Below, in pieces: positions 9,851 to 30,117 of a stretch of DNA of 53,367 nt. Both the position numbers and the translations under genes were made by a program. The stretch covers positions 1 to 53,367 of IMG/VR virus record IMGVR_UViG_3300034158_000030, one strand, 5' to 3'. The notes beneath the pieces are model-generated. The model saw only the letters and a list, made by a program, of their open reading frames with translations, did no database searches and was not told where the DNA came from. Position 1 is the stretch's first letter; every line of letters begins with the position of its first letter. The DNA is from a virus.

Positions 9851-9879
9851 TTGGATATCTCGATATCTCGCTATATACT
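9851..9879 (+). promoter_or_regulatory. promoter of the primase-helicase gene with tandem GATATCTC operator
   Basis: TTGGAT, 17 bases, TATACT, 27 bases before the start codon. Two copies of GATATCTCG (9854-9862 and 9862-9870) fill the spacer at an 8-base period. The same octamers recur in the non-coding region 12982-13190. Confidence 0.7.
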
Positions 9880-9906
9880 CGCGGCACTTTGAACGGAGCT
9901 GTAAAG

Positions 9907-12270
9907 ATGCCTATTAGAGAAGCCTACGATTTTCTCGAAGCTGAACACCGTATTTTCGGCCTGCACGGTGGCAATGACGATGGGTCCTGCGGATGCGGAT
10001 ACCCGGAGTGCAAGGCGGCCTATAAGCACCCGATTGCCAGCAACTGGCAAGTGACGCCAGACTGGTCTGATGAGCAGTTAGAAGGCATGGAGGAAATGGG
10101 CCAGCTCGATACGGGCTACGGCGTGCTCGTTAAAGGCCTTCTAGTCGTGGACGTGGACGCCCGCAACGGCGGCGTAGACGCTTATCACAATCTGGTCAAC
10201 CGCTTGGGCGTTGACCTGGCCGCAACCTCGGGGCTGACCGTACAGACCGGTTCGGGGCAGGGAAGTATGCACGTCTACTATAAGGCGCCCGAAGGGGTCA
10301 GCCTCGTGCAGAACCATAAGGACTTCAAGGGGATTGACTTCAAGTCATCCGGGTTCGTTGTCGGGCCAGGCTCGATGCACTCCAGCGGCAACCGCTACCA
10401 GATCCTCTTTGGCAGCCCTCACGAGATTGGCGACGCGCCCCAAGAGCTGATCGACCTGCTTCGGCGTCCCGATGCGTTCCGCGCCGACTGTAACGGCGCG
10501 GTCATGGACGTGACCGGCGACGACCTCGCCCACATGCTCAAGCACTGCGACTTCGACTGCGACCGGCCGACCTGGATCAACATAGGCATGGCGCTTCACC
10601 ATGCGACCGGGGGCTCAGGCTTCGATCTGTGGAACGACTGGAGCTCGAAGGGCGAGAAGTACCCCGGAGCCCCGAACCTGCGCAACCAGTGGGATCGCTT
10701 CGGCAAGTCAGCCAACCCCGTGACGCTAGGCACCCTCATCTATCACGCCGAGGCGGGCGGCTGGGAGGAGTCGGTAGAGTTCGTGCCGTCGACGTGGTTT
10801 GAGGAGGAGCTTCCAACCGGCGAAGACGTCAAGCCAGTTGACAATGACGAACCTGAACCTGTCGCGCTAGACGGCAATGAGGCGCCAAAGGCCAAGAAAG
10901 GGGCGACCCGGCACCCGTTCCACGTCAACGGCATTGACCTGCTGCGTCCGCCTGGATTCGTTGGCGAGGTGTGTAAATGGATCAACGACCAATCGCGCTT
11001 CCCTCGGGAGAACCTGGCCGTGGCGGCGGCGCTGGTGTCCATGTCCAACGTGGTCGGCCTCGGATGGACAGACGACATCGACGGCGTGACAGCCAACCTC
11101 TTTGCAATGTGCGTGGCCGGGTCCGCGACGGGGAAGGAAGCGATCATGCAGTCAATTAACACTATTCACCAGGCGGCCGGCATTCAGCGGGCGACCGTGG
11201 GCTCCATCAAGTCCGAACAGGAAATCATTCGCAACCTGATCGACAATCAGGCGGCGTTCTACGTTATCGACGAATTCGGGATATTGCTCAAGACGATTAC
11301 GACCTCGAAAGAGGCGTACCACTCCGGCGTCATCGGCGCCCTCATGTCGGCCTACTCGAAGGCGAACAGCTTTATGCCGATGAACGGCGACACTAAGCGG
11401 GAGGTTCGCAAGGCCCTGCTTGGCGAGCTCAAGTCGTGCAAAAAGGCCGTGATGGAAAACGAGGACCCAACCGGGGGCATTCAGCGCCGAGTCCCGCACC
11501 TGGAGCGCGCCCTTGAGTCCATCGACAGCGGCCTCGAAAAGCCTTACCTGTCGCTGATCGGCTTCACCACTCCCGTGACCTTTGACAGCCTCGTGACACC
11601 CGAGCAGGCGACCAACGGGTTTATTGGTCGGTCAATCATCATCAGCGAAAAAGAAACGAACCCACGGGCCAAGAAGGGGTTCAAGGCTGGCCGCATGGGT
11701 GACCGCCTGGCTCTGACCTTGCGCGCCCTGTACGACCGGGGCACCTGTGACGTTGAGGCGCACCGTGTCGAATGGTACGGCGAGCGGTCGCAGATCCGCA
11801 CCGAGCACGAGGCTCGGGACATGCTGGACATGGTCGCGGACTGGGCCTACACGGAGGCCGAGCGGCACAAGGAGTTCTCGGGCCTGGAGGCGATCCCCCG
11901 TCGAGCGCGTGAAATGGTCTCGAAGATAAGCCTAATCCTGGCAGTGCCGTCGGGCCTGCGGACCGCAGAGCACGTCCGGTGGGCCTATGCGTTCGTTGAG
12001 CGGGACATCCGGGAAAAAACCATGCTTGCCTACGCCAACGAAAACGAGGAGTCGTCGCCGGCCGCAGCCGTCAAGGCTCGAATCGTCAACATGCTGGGCG
12101 ACGGGCACAGCGAGACGCTCGGGGTCGTTATCAACCGCTGCAAGAAGTGGAAGCGCGAAGACGTCGAGAAGGTCATCAAGGTGCTTGTCGAGAACGGCAC
12201 GCTGACCCAGGAGACGACCCGCAACCCGACGAACGGCAAGGAGACCATTCGCCTGTCAATTAAGGAATAG
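9907..12270 (+). CDS. bifunctional DNA primase/polymerase and helicase
   Basis: A 787-aa replication protein. Residues ~1-200 form a Prim-Pol domain: a CGCGYPEC cysteine group (28-35), the metal-binding VVDVDARNG (Asp82, Asp84), GSGQGSMHVYY (His121), then GIDFKSSGFVVGPGS. A PriCT-like segment follows (about 225-300, WINIGMALHHATGG). From ~380 on is a helicase domain: AGSATGKE (Walker A, about 403-410) and AFYVIDEFG (Walker B). It likely primes and unwinds phage DNA. The start at 9907 has GGAG upstream; an operator-bearing promoter precedes it. Confidence 0.88.
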   Translation: MPIREAYDFLEAEHRIFGLHGGNDDGSCGCGYPECKAAYKHPIASNWQVTPDWSDEQLEGMEEMGQLDTGYGVLVKGLLVVDVDARNGGVDAYHNLVNRLGVDLAATSGLTVQTGSGQGSMHVYYKAPEGVSLVQNHKDFKGIDFKSSGFVVGPGSMHSSGNRYQILFGSPHEIGDAPQELIDLLRRPDAFRADCNGAVMDVTGDDLAHMLKHCDFDCDRPTWINIGMALHHATGGSGFDLWNDWSSKGEKYPGAPNLRNQWDRFGKSANPVTLGTLIYHAEAGGWEESVEFVPSTWFEEELPTGEDVKPVDNDEPEPVALDGNEAPKAKKGATRHPFHVNGIDLLRPPGFVGEVCKWINDQSRFPRENLAVAAALVSMSNVVGLGWTDDIDGVTANLFAMCVAGSATGKEAIMQSINTIHQAAGIQRATVGSIKSEQEIIRNLIDNQAAFYVIDEFGILLKTITTSKEAYHSGVIGALMSAYSKANSFMPMNGDTKREVRKALLGELKSCKKAVMENEDPTGGIQRRVPHLERALESIDSGLEKPYLSLIGFTTPVTFDSLVTPEQATNGFIGRSIIISEKETNPRAKKGFKAGRMGDRLALTLRALYDRGTCDVEAHRVEWYGERSQIRTEHEARDMLDMVADWAYTEAERHKEFSGLEAIPRRAREMVSKISLILAVPSGLRTAEHVRWAYAFVERDIREKTMLAYANENEESSPAAAVKARIVNMLGDGHSETLGVVINRCKKWKREDVEKVIKVLVENGTLTQETTRNPTNGKETIRLSIKE

Positions 12271-12330: not shown

Positions 12331-12843
12331 GTGGCTAGGATTTTTATTGATGTTCACCAGGACGGCACTTTTACCACTGGACCATTCCACGGATGCCCGA
12401 AGGCTCACGCGGCCAATCAAGACGGCGGCGTCATTACCTACATGAGCGACGACGTAGTTTTTCGCGATATAGAGCCGTTCGGGATTGTCTTTCGCCGCCA
12501 CACAATCGCGGCAAAGCTCGCATTCGGCCCTCTCGGTCGATGGTCGGGCGACTGGCGCAAGTGGGGCGCGTTCTGCATAAATAAGTGGGGCGCCTGGTTC
12601 GAGCGGGTTGAATGCGGCGCACGCCGCGCAAGGTTGCCATCGGCAGACGACAAGATCGACCAGCGAGCGCTCGGTATCATCACCAGGGCGCGCAAAATCC
12701 TGCTGAGCGTGCTGCGCAACCGGATGCGGGATGAGAGCCCCGAGTCGATCAGAAGGGCGATCACCAGGCTGTCAGAAAGCGGCGCAATATCCGTCATATC
12801 CGACTGCGAAGGCTCAGGAGTGACGGTTATTCTTGTCAATTAG
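12331..12843 (+). CDS. 170-aa hypothetical protein, GTG start after a hairpin
   Basis: Not recognised. The frame is open from GTG 12331 with no ATG until codon 38. The only good ribosome binding site, GCGGAG (12294-12299), lies 5' of the hairpin. The body has Trp-rich central residues (GRWSGDWRKWGAFC) and a helical C-terminal half (RALGIITRARKILLSVL, SIRRAITRLSESG) that could be a winged helix. It ends just before the repeat array 12982-13190, so a DNA-binding or replication role is possible but inferred only from position. Confidence 0.6.
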   Translation: MARIFIDVHQDGTFTTGPFHGCPKAHAANQDGGVITYMSDDVVFRDIEPFGIVFRRHTIAAKLAFGPLGRWSGDWRKWGAFCINKWGAWFERVECGARRARLPSADDKIDQRALGIITRARKILLSVLRNRMRDESPESIRRAITRLSESGAISVISDCEGSGVTVILVN

Positions 12844-13331
12844 CTGTCAAGTGGCTGGGCGCTTTTCAGGCCGAAACGGCAAAAGTTGACACCGTCCAGG
12901 CGGCGCGGTAGGTTCGAGGTAAGTCTCCTGCGGCGGCGTCGTCAGGCTGGTTAACCCCCTTATTGCTAGGGGTACATATCCCGAGATATCTAGTAGATAT
13001 CCAGTTGATAGACCAGGAAACAAAGGACATAGCGAGATAGCGAGATATCTACCGGCACCCCCACATAGCCGGATTCGCAAAACTCCTCGGATATTTCGAT
13101 ATCTCGATATGTACCTCGGAAAGCCTAGTGTTTGCGCTGGTTTGACGGAATAACACACACGGATAACTCCCGGATATCTCGGATATCTCGCCCAAGGGCG
13201 GGATGGATAAGCTTCCAATTGCGCGCGCGATTAAGAGATTTTCTAGTATTAATCTCTATAGGAGAATAATAGAGGTATCAATTTTCTATTCTTATAAGTA
13301 GAATATGCGTACACAATCAGGAGGTCTAACG
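12844..13331. other. non-coding repeat array with AT-rich block: candidate origin or operator region
   Basis: 488 bases without a credible gene. Repeats of CGAGATATC lie at 12982-12990 and 13041-13049, with degenerate copies at 12993 and 13033. Reverse-orientation GATATCTCG lies at 13098-13106, 13173-13181 and 13182-13190, with one mismatch copy at 13090. From about 13215 to 13317 the sequence is strikingly AT-rich, with the inverted repeat AGAGATT/AATCTCT and a TAGAAT box (13299-13304) 27 bases before the next start. Iterons beside an AT-rich unwinding element would fit an origin; a repressor array fits equally well. Confidence 0.6.
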
Positions 13332-13631
13332 ATGTCTCTGCGGTCTGAGTTATTTGAAGCAGTAAGGGCGGCATTGTTCGCCGGGGGCGTATCGCAAAAA
13401 GCGCTCTCCAGGTCGATGGGCGTAAACCAGTCTGAGCTGAGCAAGATCAAGCGCGGGCATGACGCCCTGTCGATTGAGAAGCTGATCGTTATCGGAGGTG
13501 CGCTCGGGGTTGGCTTGAAGTGGCAGATAGGGAAGTGTGAGCCGGTCCCGGTAGCCTCGCCCTCGGATGGTATGGATGGTTTTTCGAGGTCGCTCCGTGT
13601 GGCCGATGGATTTTTTGGGGAGGTTGAGTGA
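13332..13631 (+). CDS. XRE-family HTH transcriptional regulator
   Basis: A 99-aa DNA-binding protein with a helix-turn-helix at about residues 20-45 (VSQKALSRSMGVNQSELSKI), followed by ALSIEKLIVIGGALGVGL as in small Cro/C1 and HigA-like regulators. The start at 13332 has a strong AGGAGG; the ATG at 13305 does not. It sits immediately downstream of the GATATCTC array and heads the long early operon, so autoregulation through the array is a reasonable inference. Confidence 0.8.
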   Translation: MSLRSELFEAVRAALFAGGVSQKALSRSMGVNQSELSKIKRGHDALSIEKLIVIGGALGVGLKWQIGKCEPVPVASPSDGMDGFSRSLRVADGFFGEVE

Positions 13632-14014
13632 TGGACAAAGAGAATCTGGTAAAGCTGGCGATGTATCACCGTGGTCGGGCCAACCGCATGACGGTGTGCG
13701 CTAATAGCCCTGCGCTCTCGTGTGGTCAGCGAAAGGCGTTCAAGGTGCTGGCTGACGCCGCATGGGGCTCGGTAGCGTCCCTGATGGCTCAGGCTCGTTA
13801 TGAGGCGGGCATGGTCAAGCGACAGAAGTACCTGATCAGTCGCGAGTTCATGGCGGTTGCAACGGTCCATGCGCTGACCCGTGATGAGGCCGGCCAGCTC
13901 TATGAGGATCAGTGCGCCCTTGAGGGCATTGAGTGCGACTCGTACCTTTTGGGTCAGCCCATGGGCCAAGTGCAAGGGCCTAGCCGTTTCGCAGCGTGGG
14001 GCGCCATCCTGTGA
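13631..14014 (+). CDS. 127-aa hypothetical protein
   Basis: Not recognised. The start ATG overlaps the regulator's stop (TGATG) and GGGGAGG lies upstream. The product is mostly helical (MTVCANSPALSCGQRKAF, KVLADAAWGSVASLMAQ) with no membrane segment. It lies between two HTH genes and overlaps the second by GTGA, so the three are co-translated. Confidence 0.7.
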   Translation: MDKENLVKLAMYHRGRANRMTVCANSPALSCGQRKAFKVLADAAWGSVASLMAQARYEAGMVKRQKYLISREFMAVATVHALTRDEAGQLYEDQCALEGIECDSYLLGQPMGQVQGPSRFAAWGAIL

Positions 14015-14238
14015 GCCCTACTGTAGCGGCGCTGAGGGCTACCCTAGGCGATGCCATAGGTTACATGCTTAAAACGTCTGGAATGAGCCAGCAGGAGGCC
14101 GCAACGGCATGCGGAGTGCATCAGACGAACGTGTCTGCGGCTATCCGGGCAAAAAGCTGCACAATTGAAAAGCAAATCGACCTGCTGTCGGGTCTTGGCT
14201 ATCGGGTTGAACTGAGGGTTATCAAGAATGAAAACTAA
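14011..14238 (+). CDS. second small XRE-like HTH protein
   Basis: A 75-aa protein with a helix-turn-helix at residues 25-50 (MSQQEAATACGVHQTNVSAA), then CTIEKQIDLLSGLGYRVEL, similar in layout to the regulator at 13332. The GTG start at 14011 overlaps the upstream stop. Two small HTH proteins in one operon next to an operator-like array suggest a paired switch, or a heterodimer. Confidence 0.75.
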   Translation: MSPTVAALRATLGDAIGYMLKTSGMSQQEAATACGVHQTNVSAAIRAKSCTIEKQIDLLSGLGYRVELRVIKNEN

Positions 14239-14875
14239 TACCACTCCATACTGCGCGCTGATCGGCAAAGAGGTGACTATTTCCATCAAGCGGCCGGAGC
14301 CGGTGCGGGCGGACATGTTCGTGATTGATGAGCTGCCGTTTATCGAGCATGCGCCTGGCAATGAGCGGTCTATCAGTTTTGAGCGGCCGGAGGGTGTCAA
14401 GTGGTTTGACGCGGTCCCGAGTGCTGATGGTCTGTCGGTTGAGTTCTATGATCTGCCGGAGCCGGCAGGTGTATCCATCGGGTATATGGGTCCGTTCCCG
14501 GTGTGCCCGGAGGAGGAGGTAACCCGCCGTCTGGAGTGGGATTTGTTCTATCCGTCGGGGTCGGTGTCGGTTGTTCGGGATGAGCCGGAACCGAAGATGC
14601 GTGACGTGGTTGTTATTGGTCATGGTCGAGGGCAGCCAGTGCGGAATGGGGTTATGGCAGCCCTCCTTGCAGCGCTTGGGGCGACTGGGCAGCGGGTCCT
14701 TTACGTGAGCGATGGGCAGCATAGGGCGTTCCGCTCTATCGGGGTCGATCCCGACTACATGGAGATTGTCCGGCCATTCCAGTTCGCCGAAGGGGTTAAC
14801 CCGGTTAAGAGCAAGCATCGGGGCCTGGACGTATCGCATCGTAGTCGTGCCGGAAAAGCTAACCGCTGGCGTTAA
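14228..14875 (+). CDS. hypothetical early protein carrying a TipJ-like segment
   Basis: A 215-aa protein of unknown role. Residues 88-111 (GPF..CPE.E.T.RLEWD.F.P.G) match the phage's own tip protein encoded at 48624-51650 (about residues 520-545) at 16 of roughly 29 aligned positions. The C-terminal half (VVVIGHGRG, MAALLAALGATGQRVLYVSDG) resembles a small alpha/beta domain. It starts inside the last codons of the HTH gene. A transposed or duplicated fragment of a tail gene in an early gene is unusual. Confidence 0.72.
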   Translation: MKTNTTPYCALIGKEVTISIKRPEPVRADMFVIDELPFIEHAPGNERSISFERPEGVKWFDAVPSADGLSVEFYDLPEPAGVSIGYMGPFPVCPEEEVTRRLEWDLFYPSGSVSVVRDEPEPKMRDVVVIGHGRGQPVRNGVMAALLAALGATGQRVLYVSDGQHRAFRSIGVDPDYMEIVRPFQFAEGVNPVKSKHRGLDVSHRSRAGKANRWR

Positions 14876-14882
14876 AAAGTGC

Positions 14883-14912
14883 TTGAGCCTGGGGGATGGT
14901 TTATGCCATGAT
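14883..14912 (+). promoter_or_regulatory. early promoter flanked by an inverted repeat
   Basis: TTGAGC, 18 bases, CATGAT, 34 bases before the start at 14947. GAGCCTGG (14885-14892) and CCAGGCTC (14913-14920) bracket the spacer and -10. Confidence 0.5.
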
Positions 14913-14946
14913 CCAGGCTCACTTTATTTGTTGATTTGGGGGATTC

Positions 14947-15120
14947 ATGCAGGGCACTGGCGCAGCTAACTTTGAGAAGAAAGGCAAGACAAAGGGCTAT
15001 CAGGAGAATGCTGAGCAGGCACGCAAGCGGAACATTCGTATGCGTCGCGAGCGGCTTCAAAAGCGGCGCATGTGTCATATCAACCCGGAGAACATCGTCG
15101 CAGCGGATGAGCTCAAGTGA
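14947..15120 (+). CDS. 57-aa basic hypothetical protein
   Basis: A short, highly charged protein (KKGKTKGY, then RMRRERLQKRRM), mostly Lys and Arg, that could bind nucleic acid. The stop overlaps the next start (GTGA), which supports it as a real gene. A GGGGG tract a few bases upstream can serve as binding site. No family is recognised. Confidence 0.6.
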   Translation: MQGTGAANFEKKGKTKGYQENAEQARKRNIRMRRERLQKRRMCHINPENIVAADELK

Positions 15121-15554
15121 ACCGCCTGTCGTTGTCGTGGGAGGGCGAGCTCATCGACTCCGTCCATGGCGACCTAGTCGAGTGGCGCGACGTTGAGAAG
15201 CTTGTAGAGGAGCTTGAGGCGTATCGCGCTGCGGCTAAGCCGGCAACGACAGGCACTGTATGCAAAGGCCGGTTCGGCTATGTCAACGGCGCAGACGCTC
15301 AGAAGTTCCTGGCGGGCGAGCGGTCCACTGTGACGGTCTCGCGCATGTCAACCGTCAAGCGCTCAATGCCTCTCTACTTCCCTGATAGCCCAGTCAAGTT
15401 CGTTAAGCCTGGAGTGGGCGACGCCTGCTACCACAAGGGCGCCAGGGTGACCTGCAAGGAGTGGACTCGGAAAGGCATCATCGTCGTCTACCCGGACGGC
15501 AAATGCGTGAATACAAGCTCATGGGAGTTAAAGCGGGATGGGGATGCACGTTAA
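15117..15554 (+). CDS. 145-aa hypothetical protein
   Basis: Not recognised. The GTG start overlaps the upstream stop. The N-terminal part has a helix EWRDVEKLVEELEAYRAA. The C-terminal ~80 residues look beta-rich and hydrophilic, with two Cys and a final WELKRDG. No signal peptide or membrane segment. Member of the early co-translated chain. Confidence 0.68.
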   Translation: MNRLSLSWEGELIDSVHGDLVEWRDVEKLVEELEAYRAAAKPATTGTVCKGRFGYVNGADAQKFLAGERSTVTVSRMSTVKRSMPLYFPDSPVKFVKPGVGDACYHKGARVTCKEWTRKGIIVVYPDGKCVNTSSWELKRDGDAR

Positions 15555-15723
15555 ATTGGCTCATAAAATTGGTGACACTGAGCTGCCTTATGAGCTACCT
15601 TGCGAAGTCGTCGTGATGAACGCCGACAATGCTGTAGTTCAAATTCAAATGGCTGCGGACGGGATGAGCAAGACTCGCACCGTTCAGGCTGATCAGGTTT
15701 ATTTCAAGCTGGAGGCTGCATGA
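15538..15723 (+). CDS. 61-aa hypothetical protein
   Basis: A small protein predicted beta-rich (YELPCEVVVMNADNAVVQIQ). It overlaps the previous gene by 17 bases and the next by ATGA. ATG 15544 is an alternative start. No family is recognised. Confidence 0.6.
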   Translation: MGMHVKLAHKIGDTELPYELPCEVVVMNADNAVVQIQMAADGMSKTRTVQADQVYFKLEAA

Positions 15724-16013
15724 AAGAGGGTTGCATGGGCATAAGCGTCATCGTCCCGGTGACGCAGGTTATCCGCCTGGATCGGCTGCCGGCCAAGAAC
15801 CGCACAAAGAGCGTCAACGCGGCGATTGATCTGTACCTTGACGTTCAGGAGGGTCCGGTGGGCAGCAACTGCTATGGCGTTGATTGCGATTATTTCCGGG
15901 AAAAGCTGCGCACCCTGATACGCGACATCGGCTCATATGGCCCTGAGGGGCTTAGTCGTGCCTTCGCAAGGCTTAGCGTAACGGCTGGAGGGGTCATTGA
16001 TGAAAAAGTTTGA
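15720..16013 (+). CDS. 97-aa hypothetical protein
   Basis: Not recognised. The start overlaps the previous stop by ATGA. A strand-helix start (VIVPVTQVIRLDRLPAKNRT, KSVNAAIDLYLD) is loosely like a ribbon-helix-helix, followed by helices (REKLRTLIRDIG). The likeness is too weak to assign DNA binding. Confidence 0.62.
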   Translation: MKEGCMGISVIVPVTQVIRLDRLPAKNRTKSVNAAIDLYLDVQEGPVGSNCYGVDCDYFREKLRTLIRDIGSYGPEGLSRAFARLSVTAGGVIDEKV

Positions 16014-16347
16014 AGTCGTTAAGGCTCGGCACGGGCGAGCTGTCTACTGGGTCGAGCGAGTGGCTGCGAACCCGATGGCTATGATCCACACCAAGGCCAA
16101 GGCCGAGAAGGTCGCCAAGGCTTTCAGTCGCCACGTTGAGCACTGGAGCGCCGTCACACGGTCCGGCATGACCATCGTTACCCTGGAGCTTCGCCCGATC
16201 CGTGACGGTGGCCCGTATTTCCGTGCGGTCGGCGGCATTGACTGGCGTGAGGATGGCGTGACAGCCGAGGACCTCAGCCTAGCCATGGATCACTTGCAGC
16301 GCGACGCCTATAGAGCCTTGGCACGCCATGCAATCGGCCCCCATTAA
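16000..16347 (+). CDS. 115-aa hypothetical protein
   Basis: Start ATG 16000 with GGAGG upstream; it overlaps the previous gene by 14 bases. Basic N-terminal half (KAKAEKVAKAFSRHVEHW), then a beta-rich middle (GMTIVTLELRPI) and a final helix. No motif is recognised. Confidence 0.65.
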   Translation: MKKFEVVKARHGRAVYWVERVAANPMAMIHTKAKAEKVAKAFSRHVEHWSAVTRSGMTIVTLELRPIRDGGPYFRAVGGIDWREDGVTAEDLSLAMDHLQRDAYRALARHAIGPH

Positions 16348-16486
16348 AAAGTCGGTCTGGTGGGTTTACCTGCCAGGTCAAAAACCCTTCACCATGGGCG
16401 GATCGCCCATGACACACCAAGAGGCACAGGACATCGTATGGACGATTTGGGCAACGACGGACAAGAGCAAGATCCAGGTCCAATAG
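16328..16486 (+). CDS. 52-aa hypothetical protein
   Basis: A short gene overlapping both neighbours. It contains WWVYLPGQKPFTM, a GGSPMTHQEAQDIVW stretch and a C-terminal KIQVQ, which looks like a compact strand-turn-helix-strand fold. The composition is that of a real protein, but no family is assigned. Confidence 0.55.
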   Translation: MQSAPIKKSVWWVYLPGQKPFTMGGSPMTHQEAQDIVWTIWATTDKSKIQVQ

Positions 16487-16665
16487 ATCACTGGGTCAAC
16501 TTCAAGACGCGCCGGGTCCGCATGGGTCGCGGGGAGGGGCAGCATGCGGCAGCACTGGCGGACGGGTTCAAGAAGGTCACGCAGAAGCATTTTGTCAGCT
16601 ACCTTGACAAGGCCCGCAACGGGTTCCGCCGCAAGCCGAAGGCCAAGGGGGCGCGGCATGTATAA
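16438..16665 (+). CDS. 75-aa basic hypothetical protein
   Basis: Starts MDDLGNDGQEQDPGPIDHW at 16438 inside the previous gene. It has an acidic N-terminus and a strongly basic remainder (FKTRRVRMGRG, ARNGFRRKPKAKGARH), so nucleic-acid contact is possible. It overlaps the next gene by eight bases. Function unknown. Confidence 0.58.
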   Translation: MDDLGNDGQEQDPGPIDHWVNFKTRRVRMGRGEGQHAAALADGFKKVTQKHFVSYLDKARNGFRRKPKAKGARHV

Positions 16666-16876
16666 CGGCAAGCGCGGGGCGCTATGGGTCGAAGGCGTCC
16701 AGCACGTCGAGCGCGAGATAGGGCTCGCACAGGGCGAGGAGGCGCGAGGTGTGGCCGACCGCATGCTAGCAGCCCTGGATCAGGCGGAAAGGCCTCGGGA
16801 GTACGCAGGGGGCGTTAGAGACGCATGCGAGGCTGTACTCAAGGCCCTGGAAGCGCAGGCCGTTGAAGTCGGCTGA
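16658..16876 (+). CDS. 72-aa hypothetical protein
   Basis: Starts MYNGKRGALWVEG at 16658. Almost entirely helical and acidic afterwards (EARGVADRMLAALDQAERP). Last gene before the terminator at 16906, so it closes this early sub-operon. No family is recognised. Confidence 0.6.
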   Translation: MYNGKRGALWVEGVQHVEREIGLAQGEEARGVADRMLAALDQAERPREYAGGVRDACEAVLKALEAQAVEVG

Positions 16877-16883
16877 CAGACGG

Positions 16884-16905
16884 TATATCAACATTTATTG
16901 ATATA
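16884..16905. repeat. perfect inverted repeat TATATCAA-N6-TTGATATA
   Basis: Two 8-base arms separated by CATTTA directly upstream of a terminator hairpin and of the promoter 16929-16957. The symmetry and spacing suit a dimeric DNA-binding protein. Confidence 0.55.
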
Positions 16906-16944
16906 GCCCGGTTTAAGTAAAATAATACTTGACCGGGCTTTTTT
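16906..16944 (+). terminator. long terminator hairpin
   Basis: GCCCGGT and ACCGGGC form the base and AAGTA/TACTT the upper stem around a six-base A-rich loop, followed by six T. The 3' arm contains the TTGACC of the next promoter. Confidence 0.85.
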
Positions 16945-16957
16945 GTGTGCGTACAGT
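16929..16957 (+). promoter_or_regulatory. promoter overlapping the terminator
   Basis: TTGACC, 17 bases, TACAGT. The -35 lies in the 3' arm of the terminator, so one element ends the upstream transcript and starts the next. Confidence 0.5.
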
Positions 16958-16997
16958 TCGTGTCAAGCAACTAGACAAACAAAACGGAGTAAATGAC

Positions 16998-17180
16998 ATG
17001 ACCGCAACCATCAAGAAAGAAGCTCAGGACGTACAGGTTGGCGAAACCGTTTTCACCGCTGCGGGCAACTGGGCGGAAGTAACCGCGATCACCTGCACCG
17101 CTGGTGGGCTGGTAGTGATGTCCCTCAAGGACCACTGCCCTTGCCACTGGCACAAGACCGAGACCGTCCAGGCCCGCTAA
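16998..17180 (+). CDS. 60-aa hypothetical protein
   Basis: Starts at 16998 with CGGAGT upstream. Beta-rich (VQVGETVFTAAGNWAEVTAI) with a Cys/His-rich end (DHCPCHWHK) that may bind a metal. Own promoter and terminator-like hairpins on both sides suggest independent strong expression. Family unknown. Confidence 0.68.
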   Translation: MTATIKKEAQDVQVGETVFTAAGNWAEVTAITCTAGGLVVMSLKDHCPCHWHKTETVQAR

Positions 17181-23544: not shown

Positions 23545-24786
23545 ATGACCGACACCACTGTAGAGACCACTCCGAACAGCATCAATAAAATGATCAAGTC
23601 GAAGATGATCAAAAAGCTCGACTCGGGCCTGTGGATTCAGCTCAAGAACGTCCACGACAAAAAGCGCGAAGATGGCACCTGCTGGAACCGTCGCGACATG
23701 AGCGCCTCCGGCACCCTGGAGCATATCGCAGGCATTACCAAGCACCTAAGCCGAGACGGCATTCTGCCGGCTGTAGAGGTTCAGGCGCACCCGGAAAGCG
23801 GCGTGGTAAAGATCGACGGCTATTGCCGTACCGAGGCGTACCGCAATGTCGACGCATCCGGCGAGGGCGAAATCTGGCTGCCTATCATTCAATTCAAAGG
23901 TGATGAGCTGGACTGCCTTGCCCGTATCGAATCCTCGAACCGCGACCGCAAGCTCACTCCGCTCGAACAGCTCGACCTCTACAAGTCGACCCGCGATGAG
24001 CTGATAGCTACCGGCCTCAAGGGCACCCTCGCGGAAATCGCCCACGTCATGAACGTTTCGCGCCAGTACGTCGACCAGATCCTCAAGTTGGGCGCCCTGG
24101 ACGCCGAAGGCAAGGCGCTGGTGTCCGAGGGTAAGGTCACGGCAGCCCAAGCTGTTAAAGCTGTCCGTGAGGGCGCTGAGGCCGCTACAGCAGCACTCAA
24201 GACCAAGGCGGTCGAGAACAAAGAGAAGGCAGGACCGAAAGCGCCTCAGGTTGCGCCGTCCCTGCTGTCTGACCTGTTTCAAATGACCGGCAACATCCGT
24301 CGCAGCCTGTCGCCAGAAGTTCACGCGGTCGCCGCTGGGTTCCTCAAGGGCGAGCGCAAGGCAACCGACATGGTATCTATCGAGGTCGGCCACCTGGCCC
24401 GCCTGATGGCCCTCCAGGACGAAGGCGAGCGCCAGCTTGAGGCCAAGGCCAGCAAAGCAAAGGCCAAGGCGGAAGCGGCTAACCAGGAGCCTATTGAGCT
24501 GCCTGAGGTGCCGGTAGACTCAATCCCTGCGGACGTACAGGCTAAGCTAGACTCGGAGCTTGCGCATGTCGACCTGGGCGAACAGTTGAATGATGACGGC
24601 CAGGAGCCTTGCCGCGTGGCGAGCGATGGCGGTATAGGTGAACTGGCATTGGTCGACCTGGACCCCGCCGACCTGGGCGGCGACTGGACACCAACGGACG
24701 CCGACCTGCAACTCAAGGACGACCAGGAGCGCCACGAGTCGGACAAAGAGCAAGAAGACAACAACCAGTTCGCATTCCTAGGCTGA
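23545..24786 (+). CDS. ParB-like DNA-binding protein
   Basis: A 413-aa protein. VKIDGYCRTEAYRNV resembles ParB box II. ARIESSNRDRKLTPLEQL and the following helices with an HTH (TLAEIAHVMNVSRQYVDQIL) match the ParB/RepB/Spo0J core. Then comes a helical region, an Ala/Lys-rich linker and a long acidic tail (from ~330). The C-terminal dimer domain of chromosomal ParB is not evident. There is no ParA gene in the genome, so a transcriptional or packaging-related role is as likely as partition. Confidence 0.78.
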   Translation: MTDTTVETTPNSINKMIKSKMIKKLDSGLWIQLKNVHDKKREDGTCWNRRDMSASGTLEHIAGITKHLSRDGILPAVEVQAHPESGVVKIDGYCRTEAYRNVDASGEGEIWLPIIQFKGDELDCLARIESSNRDRKLTPLEQLDLYKSTRDELIATGLKGTLAEIAHVMNVSRQYVDQILKLGALDAEGKALVSEGKVTAAQAVKAVREGAEAATAALKTKAVENKEKAGPKAPQVAPSLLSDLFQMTGNIRRSLSPEVHAVAAGFLKGERKATDMVSIEVGHLARLMALQDEGERQLEAKASKAKAKAEAANQEPIELPEVPVDSIPADVQAKLDSELAHVDLGEQLNDDGQEPCRVASDGGIGELALVDLDPADLGGDWTPTDADLQLKDDQERHESDKEQEDNNQFAFLG

Positions 24787-29762: not shown

Positions 29763-29833
29763 GCGGGTATGCACAGGGTGTTAGTCAGCCTTCCAAGCTG
29801 ACGACAAGGGTTCGATTCCCTTTATCCGCTCCA
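29763..29833 (+). tRNA. tRNA-Gly (TCC) with shortened D-arm
   Basis: Acceptor GCGGGTA/TATCCGC (one G-T), anticodon stem TCAGC/GCTGA with loop CTTCCAA, T-arm AAGGG/CCCTT with TTCGATT, and encoded CCA. The D region is only CAC-AGG-GTG-like, several bases shorter than usual, for a total of 71 bases. Confidence 0.9.
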
Positions 29834-29837
29834 GTGT

Positions 29838-29940
29838 TTGACGTGGCTACCCCGACCTAGTGAGCGGGCAATTGCGGAAGGAAGTACGCGCAGGTCTACA
29901 AGTGGCGCGCAACTCTTGCGGGTGAGGCTCCCGCCGTCAA
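29838..29940 (+). ncRNA. possible degenerate tRNA-like spacer
   Basis: TTGACG (29838-29843) and CGTCAA (29935-29940) could form an acceptor-like stem. A 5-base stem GCGGG/CCCGC with a 7-base loop abuts the 3' arm, as a T-arm would, but the loop TGAGGCT is not T-loop-like. Confidence 0.3.
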
Positions 29941-29949
29941 CTGATTCAC

Positions 29950-30036
29950 GGACGATTGGCAGAGAGGTTTAACGCAACCGCTTGCTAAGCGGCAGCCCGA
30001 AAGGGTTCCCAGGTTCGAATCCTGGATCGTCCGCCA
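29950..30036 (+). tRNA. tRNA-Ser (GCT)
   Basis: Acceptor GGACGAT/ATCGTCC, anticodon loop TTGCTAA, long variable arm with CCC-GAAA-GGG, T-arm CCAGG/CCTGG with TTCGAAT, and encoded CCA. The long variable arm is that expected for serine. Confidence 0.95.
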
Positions 30037-30041
30037 AACGC

Positions 30042-30117
30042 ACGCGCATAGCTCAGCGGATAGAGCAACCGCCTTCTAAGCGGTCGGCCACTGGTTCAAA
30101 TCCAGTTGTGCGTACCA
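30042..30117 (+). tRNA. tRNA-Arg (TCT)
   Basis: Acceptor ACGCGCA/TGTGCGT, D-arm GCTC/GAGC, anticodon stem ACCGC/GCGGT with loop CTTCTAA, T-arm ACTGG/CCAGT with TTCAAAT, and encoded CCA. It reads AGA, a rare codon in GC-rich hosts. Confidence 0.96.

Follow-up and report, generated by a model that had tools for sequence, protein, structure and literature searches.

The DNA analysed here is the virus record IMGVR_UViG_3300034158_000030, a window of 53,367 bp (i.e., the whole stretch; called W among its relatives), and the element in question is an array of short repeated words lying 0.7 kb downstream of a primase-helicase gene, which we consider a probable replication origin. The primase-helicase gene is preceded by a promoter that holds the same words and is followed by a small open reading frame (ORF 12331), the array, an AT-rich block and two genes encoding helix-turn-helix (HTH) proteins, referred to as HTH1 and HTH2 (Table 1).

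Table 1. Features of the primase-helicase region in the 53,367-bp window (strand in brackets).
Feature	Position	Description
Primase promoter	9852..9880 (+)	spacer made of two exact words, 9854-9869 (minus), and a degenerate third; proposed self-repression operator
Primase-helicase	9907..12270 (+)	Prim-Pol (PF09250), PriCT_2 (PF08707), DUF3987-like helicase, C-terminal winged helix (about residues 718-787); putative initiator
Winged-helix codons	12061..12267 (+)	residues 719-787; N743/R744 at the end of helix 2
ORF 12331	12331..12843 (+)	N-terminal domain of about 100 residues and unknown fold, followed by another copy of the winged helix found in the primase
Iteron array	12982..13190	putative replication origin; 12982 (+), 12993 (+), 13033 (+), 13041 (+) versus 13090 (-), 13098 (-), degenerate 13161 (-), 13173 (-), 13182 (-)
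AT-rich block	13215..13317	may serve as an unwinding element, as the promoter region of the HTH operon, or as both
HTH protein 1 (HTH1)	13332..13631 (+)	HTH_3/XRE; rival candidate binder
HTH protein 2 (HTH2)	14011..14238 (+)	HTH_37; rival candidate binder
Exact copies of GAGATATC	9854 (-), 9862 (-), 12983 (+), 13042 (+), 13098 (-), 13173 (-), 13182 (-), 30838 (-)	the last is a stray

The exact word GAGATATC occurs eight times in the window, compared with a mean of 1.1 and a maximum of 6 in shuffled sequence, and five of the eight copies fall inside 221 bp (binomial 7e-11). A free expectation-maximisation motif finder was dropped as too permissive and replaced by a statistic combining word copies with same-strand neighbours spaced 7–12 bp, for which shuffles served as comparison. 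By this statistic, the interval 12841–13330 reached 37.5, against a maximum of 13.5 among 200 shuffles. An earlier note on this DNA had described an iteron-like array here; its exact copies were recovered where it had placed them, its near copies at 12993, 13033 and 13090 proved to be real, and a further degenerate word was found near 13161. Its observation that the left copies point right and the right copies point left also held, and the layout is close to a mirror image, with an outer pair (12982/12993) and an inner pair (13033/13041) on the plus strand facing an inner pair (13090/13098) and an outer pair (13173/13182) on the minus strand.

The tandem copies said by the same note to fill the spacer of the primase promoter were likewise present, as two exact words at an 8-bp period. 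The promoter itself resembles a sigma-70 site, which reads TTGGAT-17-TATACT by eye and TGGATA-16-TATACT by scan, and such sites were no commoner in the promoter scan than in shuffles. The degenerate third word (9870–9878) overlaps the –10 element. Promoter words stand in the same orientation in five relatives (L002, L003, L004, L006 and L007) and were found almost exclusively in the Pseudomonas-type clade. In most other branches, a small HTH gene stands before the primase; this clade has none, and self-repression may have taken its place.

To the right of the array, the AT-rich block, whose limits agree with those given earlier, is 68% AT (versus 41% for the genome), and of all 103-bp stretches in the 53 kb, the one beginning at 13231 has the highest AT content. 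In W, the block contains an inverted repeat AGAGATT...AATCTCT. A similar AT-rich block is present in all eight Pseudomonas-type phages (W and L001–L007), in each case with a TTAAGAGATT...TATCTCTTAGAG-like inverted repeat located 5′ of the HTH operon. The GC skew of the rightward genes rises across the array from 0.035 (9907–12270) to 0.19 (13332–14875), a rise noted for 12900–17000 and suggestive of what might occur at an origin.

The primase-helicase matches phrog_3022 (E 9e-146), and Pfam places its Prim-Pol and PriCT_2 domains above, and DUF3987 just under, their cut-offs. AlphaFold2 modelling of residues 624–787 with 71 homologues predicted a canonical winged helix (predicted local distance difference test score of 92.6), with helices at 718–730, 738–744 and 750–762, and strands at 735–737, 766–772 and 779–785. 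The structures in the PDB that look like this predicted domain are winged helices, including DNA-bound regulators, and a profile search of solved structures gave weak matches only. The corresponding domain of the P4 alpha protein was absent from the fold-search lists, but since common winged helices fill these lists, this absence carries no meaning. A helicase and a predicted C-terminal DNA-binding domain are joined in one protein, as in a self-loading initiator helicase of the SaPI or P4 kind, and multiple short repeats lie in a non-coding region adjoining its gene.

Among named phages, Torfinnsbu and DDSR119 of Pseudomonas are the closest relatives, their DNA being about 67% identical across the primase. 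In L003, whose primase is 78% identical, the words are retained at both places while the DNA between them has drifted with respect to W. Torfinnsbu carries another word, CAAAGCAA, three times in tandem in the promoter and again in its array, and DDSR119 carries TGATAACT/TGATAAGC in the promoter and related words in its gap. That the place of the word is kept while the word itself changes points to a co-changing partner. Scans of viral contigs together with phage records yielded 140 distinct primases, and a scan of bacterial genome contigs found no relatives. About 45 relatives have a facing-word array adjoining the same primase gene, each with a word of its own. These arrays mostly lie at most 800 bp downstream of the primase (upstream of the primase operon in one branch), with a same-strand spacing that peaks at 8 bp, a median length of 282 bp and a median centre gap of 57 bp. 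At T of at least 21, 59 windows near the primase (41 loci) stood against 2 elsewhere in 1.38 Mb with tandem words in both orientations. Another sequence, ACCTGACTTTTGGGTAAGG, recurs to the left of the array (L003:8926–8968, L001 around 18559, L006 around 6481, and, as its reverse complement, L007 around 12456).

The words of 47 phages were then aligned without reference to their proteins. Among these phages, word distance tracked the winged helix, with a partial rank correlation of 0.23 once the remainder of the primase was controlled for (permutation p 0.001), and did not track the remainder itself (0.04). When 668 usable primase columns were scanned with overall primase distance held constant, N743 and R744 came out as the top two and G739 as the fifth, and the best 25-residue window was 721–745. 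Among all residue-by-base pairs, N743 with the A of TAG was the best: sites of Asn743 phages carry A in 375 of 381 cases, those of Gly743 phages carry T in all 18, and those of Ser743 phages carry G in 16 of 20 and A in the remaining four. Fisher's test at the phage level gave 8e-5, but since the phages are related, change events weigh more than this figure. With the winged helix left out of tree building, Torfinnsbu and L232 fall in separate supported clades, and both combine Gly743 with GCTTTGT, a convergence of two distant phages; the L061/L068/L073 clade shows an Asn/Ser change at the same residue. An early rule for residue 739 (Gly with G, and Ser or Ala with C, at the next word position) held as a trend only, L174 combining Gly with ACAC.

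Because the Asn/Ser/Gly pattern had first been spotted by eye, the column scan is unbiased in its ranking though not in its motivation, and a prediction recorded before the last loci were analysed (i.e., Asn with TA, Ser with TG, and Gly with TT) provides a cleaner test. For Asn, L361 and its near-twin L362 carry CGCTTAGT (8/8 sites in L361), L364/L369 carry GATAG, and five more phages with weaker arrays (L358, L375, L379, L341 and L311, the orientation of the last being unsure) also show TA. The Ser arm consists of a single phage, L368, whose primase is 69% identical to that of L361 and whose word is mostly CGCTTGGT (6 G, 2 A, 1 C). These fresh loci, for which word calls and thresholds were looser than in the survey, included no further Gly743 phage. 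The Arg743 primases of L374, L376 and L377 are accompanied by other words (TATTGTCC, GGTATTAA and GGTTAATA), perhaps a further letter of the code. Words that change in step with one primase residue suggest that a readable protein-to-DNA code exists.

Since the array is conserved at the primase, its word covaries with residues 743–744, and the recorded prediction held, we consider it probable that 12982–13190 is a replication origin, the words of which are bound by the C-terminal winged helix of the primase-helicase, and that the promoter words are a self-repression operator. The earlier note had left two readings side by side; the first, in which the initiator acting at an origin is also a regulator of the primase gene, is supported and can now be specified, the initiator likely being the primase-helicase itself, while the operator set of an XRE-type switch is disfavoured.

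Several observations nevertheless weigh against this origin and its proposed reader. N743/R744 close helix 2 and not helix 3, the usual recognition helix, which was unexpected. Thr743 (L143) and Lys743 (L244) keep the A in the present alignment, and few independent changes at residue 743 underlie the code. The centre of the array in W is not AT-rich, unlike in most relatives, and the GC-skew step at 13 kb is suggestive at most. Moreover, the finder detected no array at about two-thirds of the 140 primase loci, partly because contigs end early and because weak arrays, such as that of DDSR119, are missed.

The location of the array directly 5′ of the HTH operon, and of the words in the primase promoter, would also fit an XRE/HTH switch, in which HTH1 (13332) or HTH2 (14011) would recognise the words and regulate the primase promoter as well as the operon that encodes it. 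We regard this as unlikely. Although W and L003, which have the same word, resemble each other in the HTH2 helix, they differ in HTH1, and the words of L004 and L002 are different despite an almost identical HTH2 helix (HTH1 and HTH2 being compared by eye only). The W clade has two HTH genes after the array and none before the primase. HTH proteins encoded next to the primase keep near-identical recognition helices across different words, as in L364/L369 and L368, which have the helix TGLHFNTIREIRDN in common in the HTH protein encoded ahead of the primase while their words differ, and several array phages have no HTH gene at that place. Because the word varies in step with the winged helix of the primase, whereas the recognition helices of the HTH proteins next to the primase stay the same, the operator reading was set aside, and HTH1 and HTH2 of W are disfavoured as readers of the words.

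Less likely still, the array might be an origin read by another factor, either the ORF 12331 protein or a host protein, with the primase covarying because it works with that factor. ORF 12331 carries a copy of the same winged helix and adjoins the array, but its homologues were found in just four phages, and a host protein would leave both the use of one word per phage and the residue-level covariation of the primase unexplained. Recognition of a DNA stem-loop instead of the words, as proposed for the pRN1 family (PMC4234260), is very improbable, since the array strand does fold better than shuffles (z –4.3 in W and –6.0 in L003) but any facing words would do so, the same-strand tandem copies at 8–9 bp are unneeded for a stem, and the base-by-base link to one residue favours duplex reading.

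An origin bound by the primase-helicase would have parallels in known systems. For the Staphylococcus aureus pathogenicity islands (SaPI), one account describes Rep as an initiator helicase that recognises short iterons through its C-terminal domain, in an origin immediately downstream of the rep gene (PMC7581432, which cites Ubeda et al. 2007), and which is thought to bind as two hexamers (PMC7581432). The likeness lies in the C-terminal reader (putative in W) and in the short iterons downstream of the helicase gene, whereas the present system involves tailed phages and not islands, a Prim-Pol and DUF3987-like helicase family, a mirror layout of 8–9 bp words, and extra words in the gene's own promoter. 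The phage P4 repeats occur at two places in its genome, ori and crr, the latter being a replication enhancer. The P4 alpha protein is a primase-helicase with a winged-helix domain that binds the origin repeats (PMC4234260). Both the domain combination and the two genomic sites are thus alike, and the primase-helicase of W may still work like P4 alpha, although the P4 primase is of the Toprim type while that of W is a Prim-Pol (PF09250), and the second word set in W occupies, judging by position, the promoter of the primase gene rather than a replication enhancer.

Prim-Pol, helicase and winged helix are also fused in one protein in pRN1 ORF904 and in the phages BIP-1/BPP-1, for which a two-ring model has been put forward (PMC4234260). 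In such replicons, an essential origin region lies just downstream of the gene; a stem-loop was suggested for it, and the motif that is bound was described as still to be identified (PMC4234260). The same three-domain fusion and a putative origin region downstream of the gene are found in W, where the region holds iterons whose word is linked to a residue, in an array that can also fold, as facing words do. In the Bordetella phage BPP-1 (L089), TTTGCCTCG stands in a 9-bp tandem within an inverted repeat about 480–580 bp downstream of the primase; its tandem score of 18 is weak (maximum of 16.5 in 20 shuffles), and it resembles the inner pairs of W. Systems of this kind are already known (SaPI Rep, P4 alpha, pRN1), among them short-repeat origins just 3′ of the gene for a helicase with a C-terminal reader (PMC7581432), whereas the family, the layout and the code appear new, as no report of such arrays, layout or residue-base relation was found in the open-access literature searched. 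The nick motif WACTRTGAC of other Pseudomonas phages (PMC11780129) was considered and found to be unrelated to the words.

The C-terminal part of ORF 12331 was matched to the primase C-terminal profile by hhalign (97.4%, E 9.4e-12) and also by tblastn. The four members found (W, L003, L004 and L005) all keep the Asn-Arg pair, and the protein may be an origin competitor or regulator that competes for the words. Its action would perhaps resemble that of Cnr of P4. Less likely, it would act like Odn, the origin-directed nuclease of ICP1 (PMC8263062). PLE RepA and ICP1 Odn offer the likeness of a separate protein with a copy of the initiator's domain, but RepA_N is a different domain and the iterons there are about 30 bp long (PMC8263062). 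ORF 12331 has no recognised nuclease.

Elsewhere in the window, a ParB-like protein (phrog_1033) is encoded at 23545–24786, and Rfam identified three tRNA genes at 29763–30114. A phage-plasmid lifestyle has been suggested for Torfinnsbu owing to its ParB (PMC11780129).

If the system works as SaPI Rep, P4 alpha and the pRN1 model suggest, the 8–9 bp words would act as iterons that are physically bound by the winged helix of the primase-helicase, and the facing word sets would seat two helicase rings head to head. The nearby AT-rich DNA would then open, with priming at both forks by the Prim-Pol domain. From the position of the words in the promoter, we infer that surplus primase-helicase would cover them and shut off its own gene. 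A broader and more doubtful possibility, for which we would not claim even odds, is that the whole primase-helicase family starts replication at mirror-image iteron origins with the 743 code (Asn with A, Ser with G, and Gly with T), and that in one clade the same domain also serves as promoter repressor while ORF 12331, as a stand-alone copy, competes with it, thereby timing replication or blocking rival phages that use the same word.

The array and the primase-helicase provide a candidate origin and initiator for a large group of phages in which we found neither described. The words are also a candidate for the sequence motif left open in the model of replicons that combine a Prim-Pol with a helicase and a winged helix (PMC4234260). 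The specificity between initiator and origin is made directly testable by natural variants at residue 743, such as those behind the one-base word pair CGCTTAGT (Asn) and CGCTTGGT (Ser); natural Gly and Asn forms also exist in the cultured phages Torfinnsbu (P. poae Z9_5), DDSR119 (P. putida) and H103. If the code is true, origin words would be predictable from the protein sequence and vice versa, and it would hint at the way in which related phages cease to recognise one another's origins.
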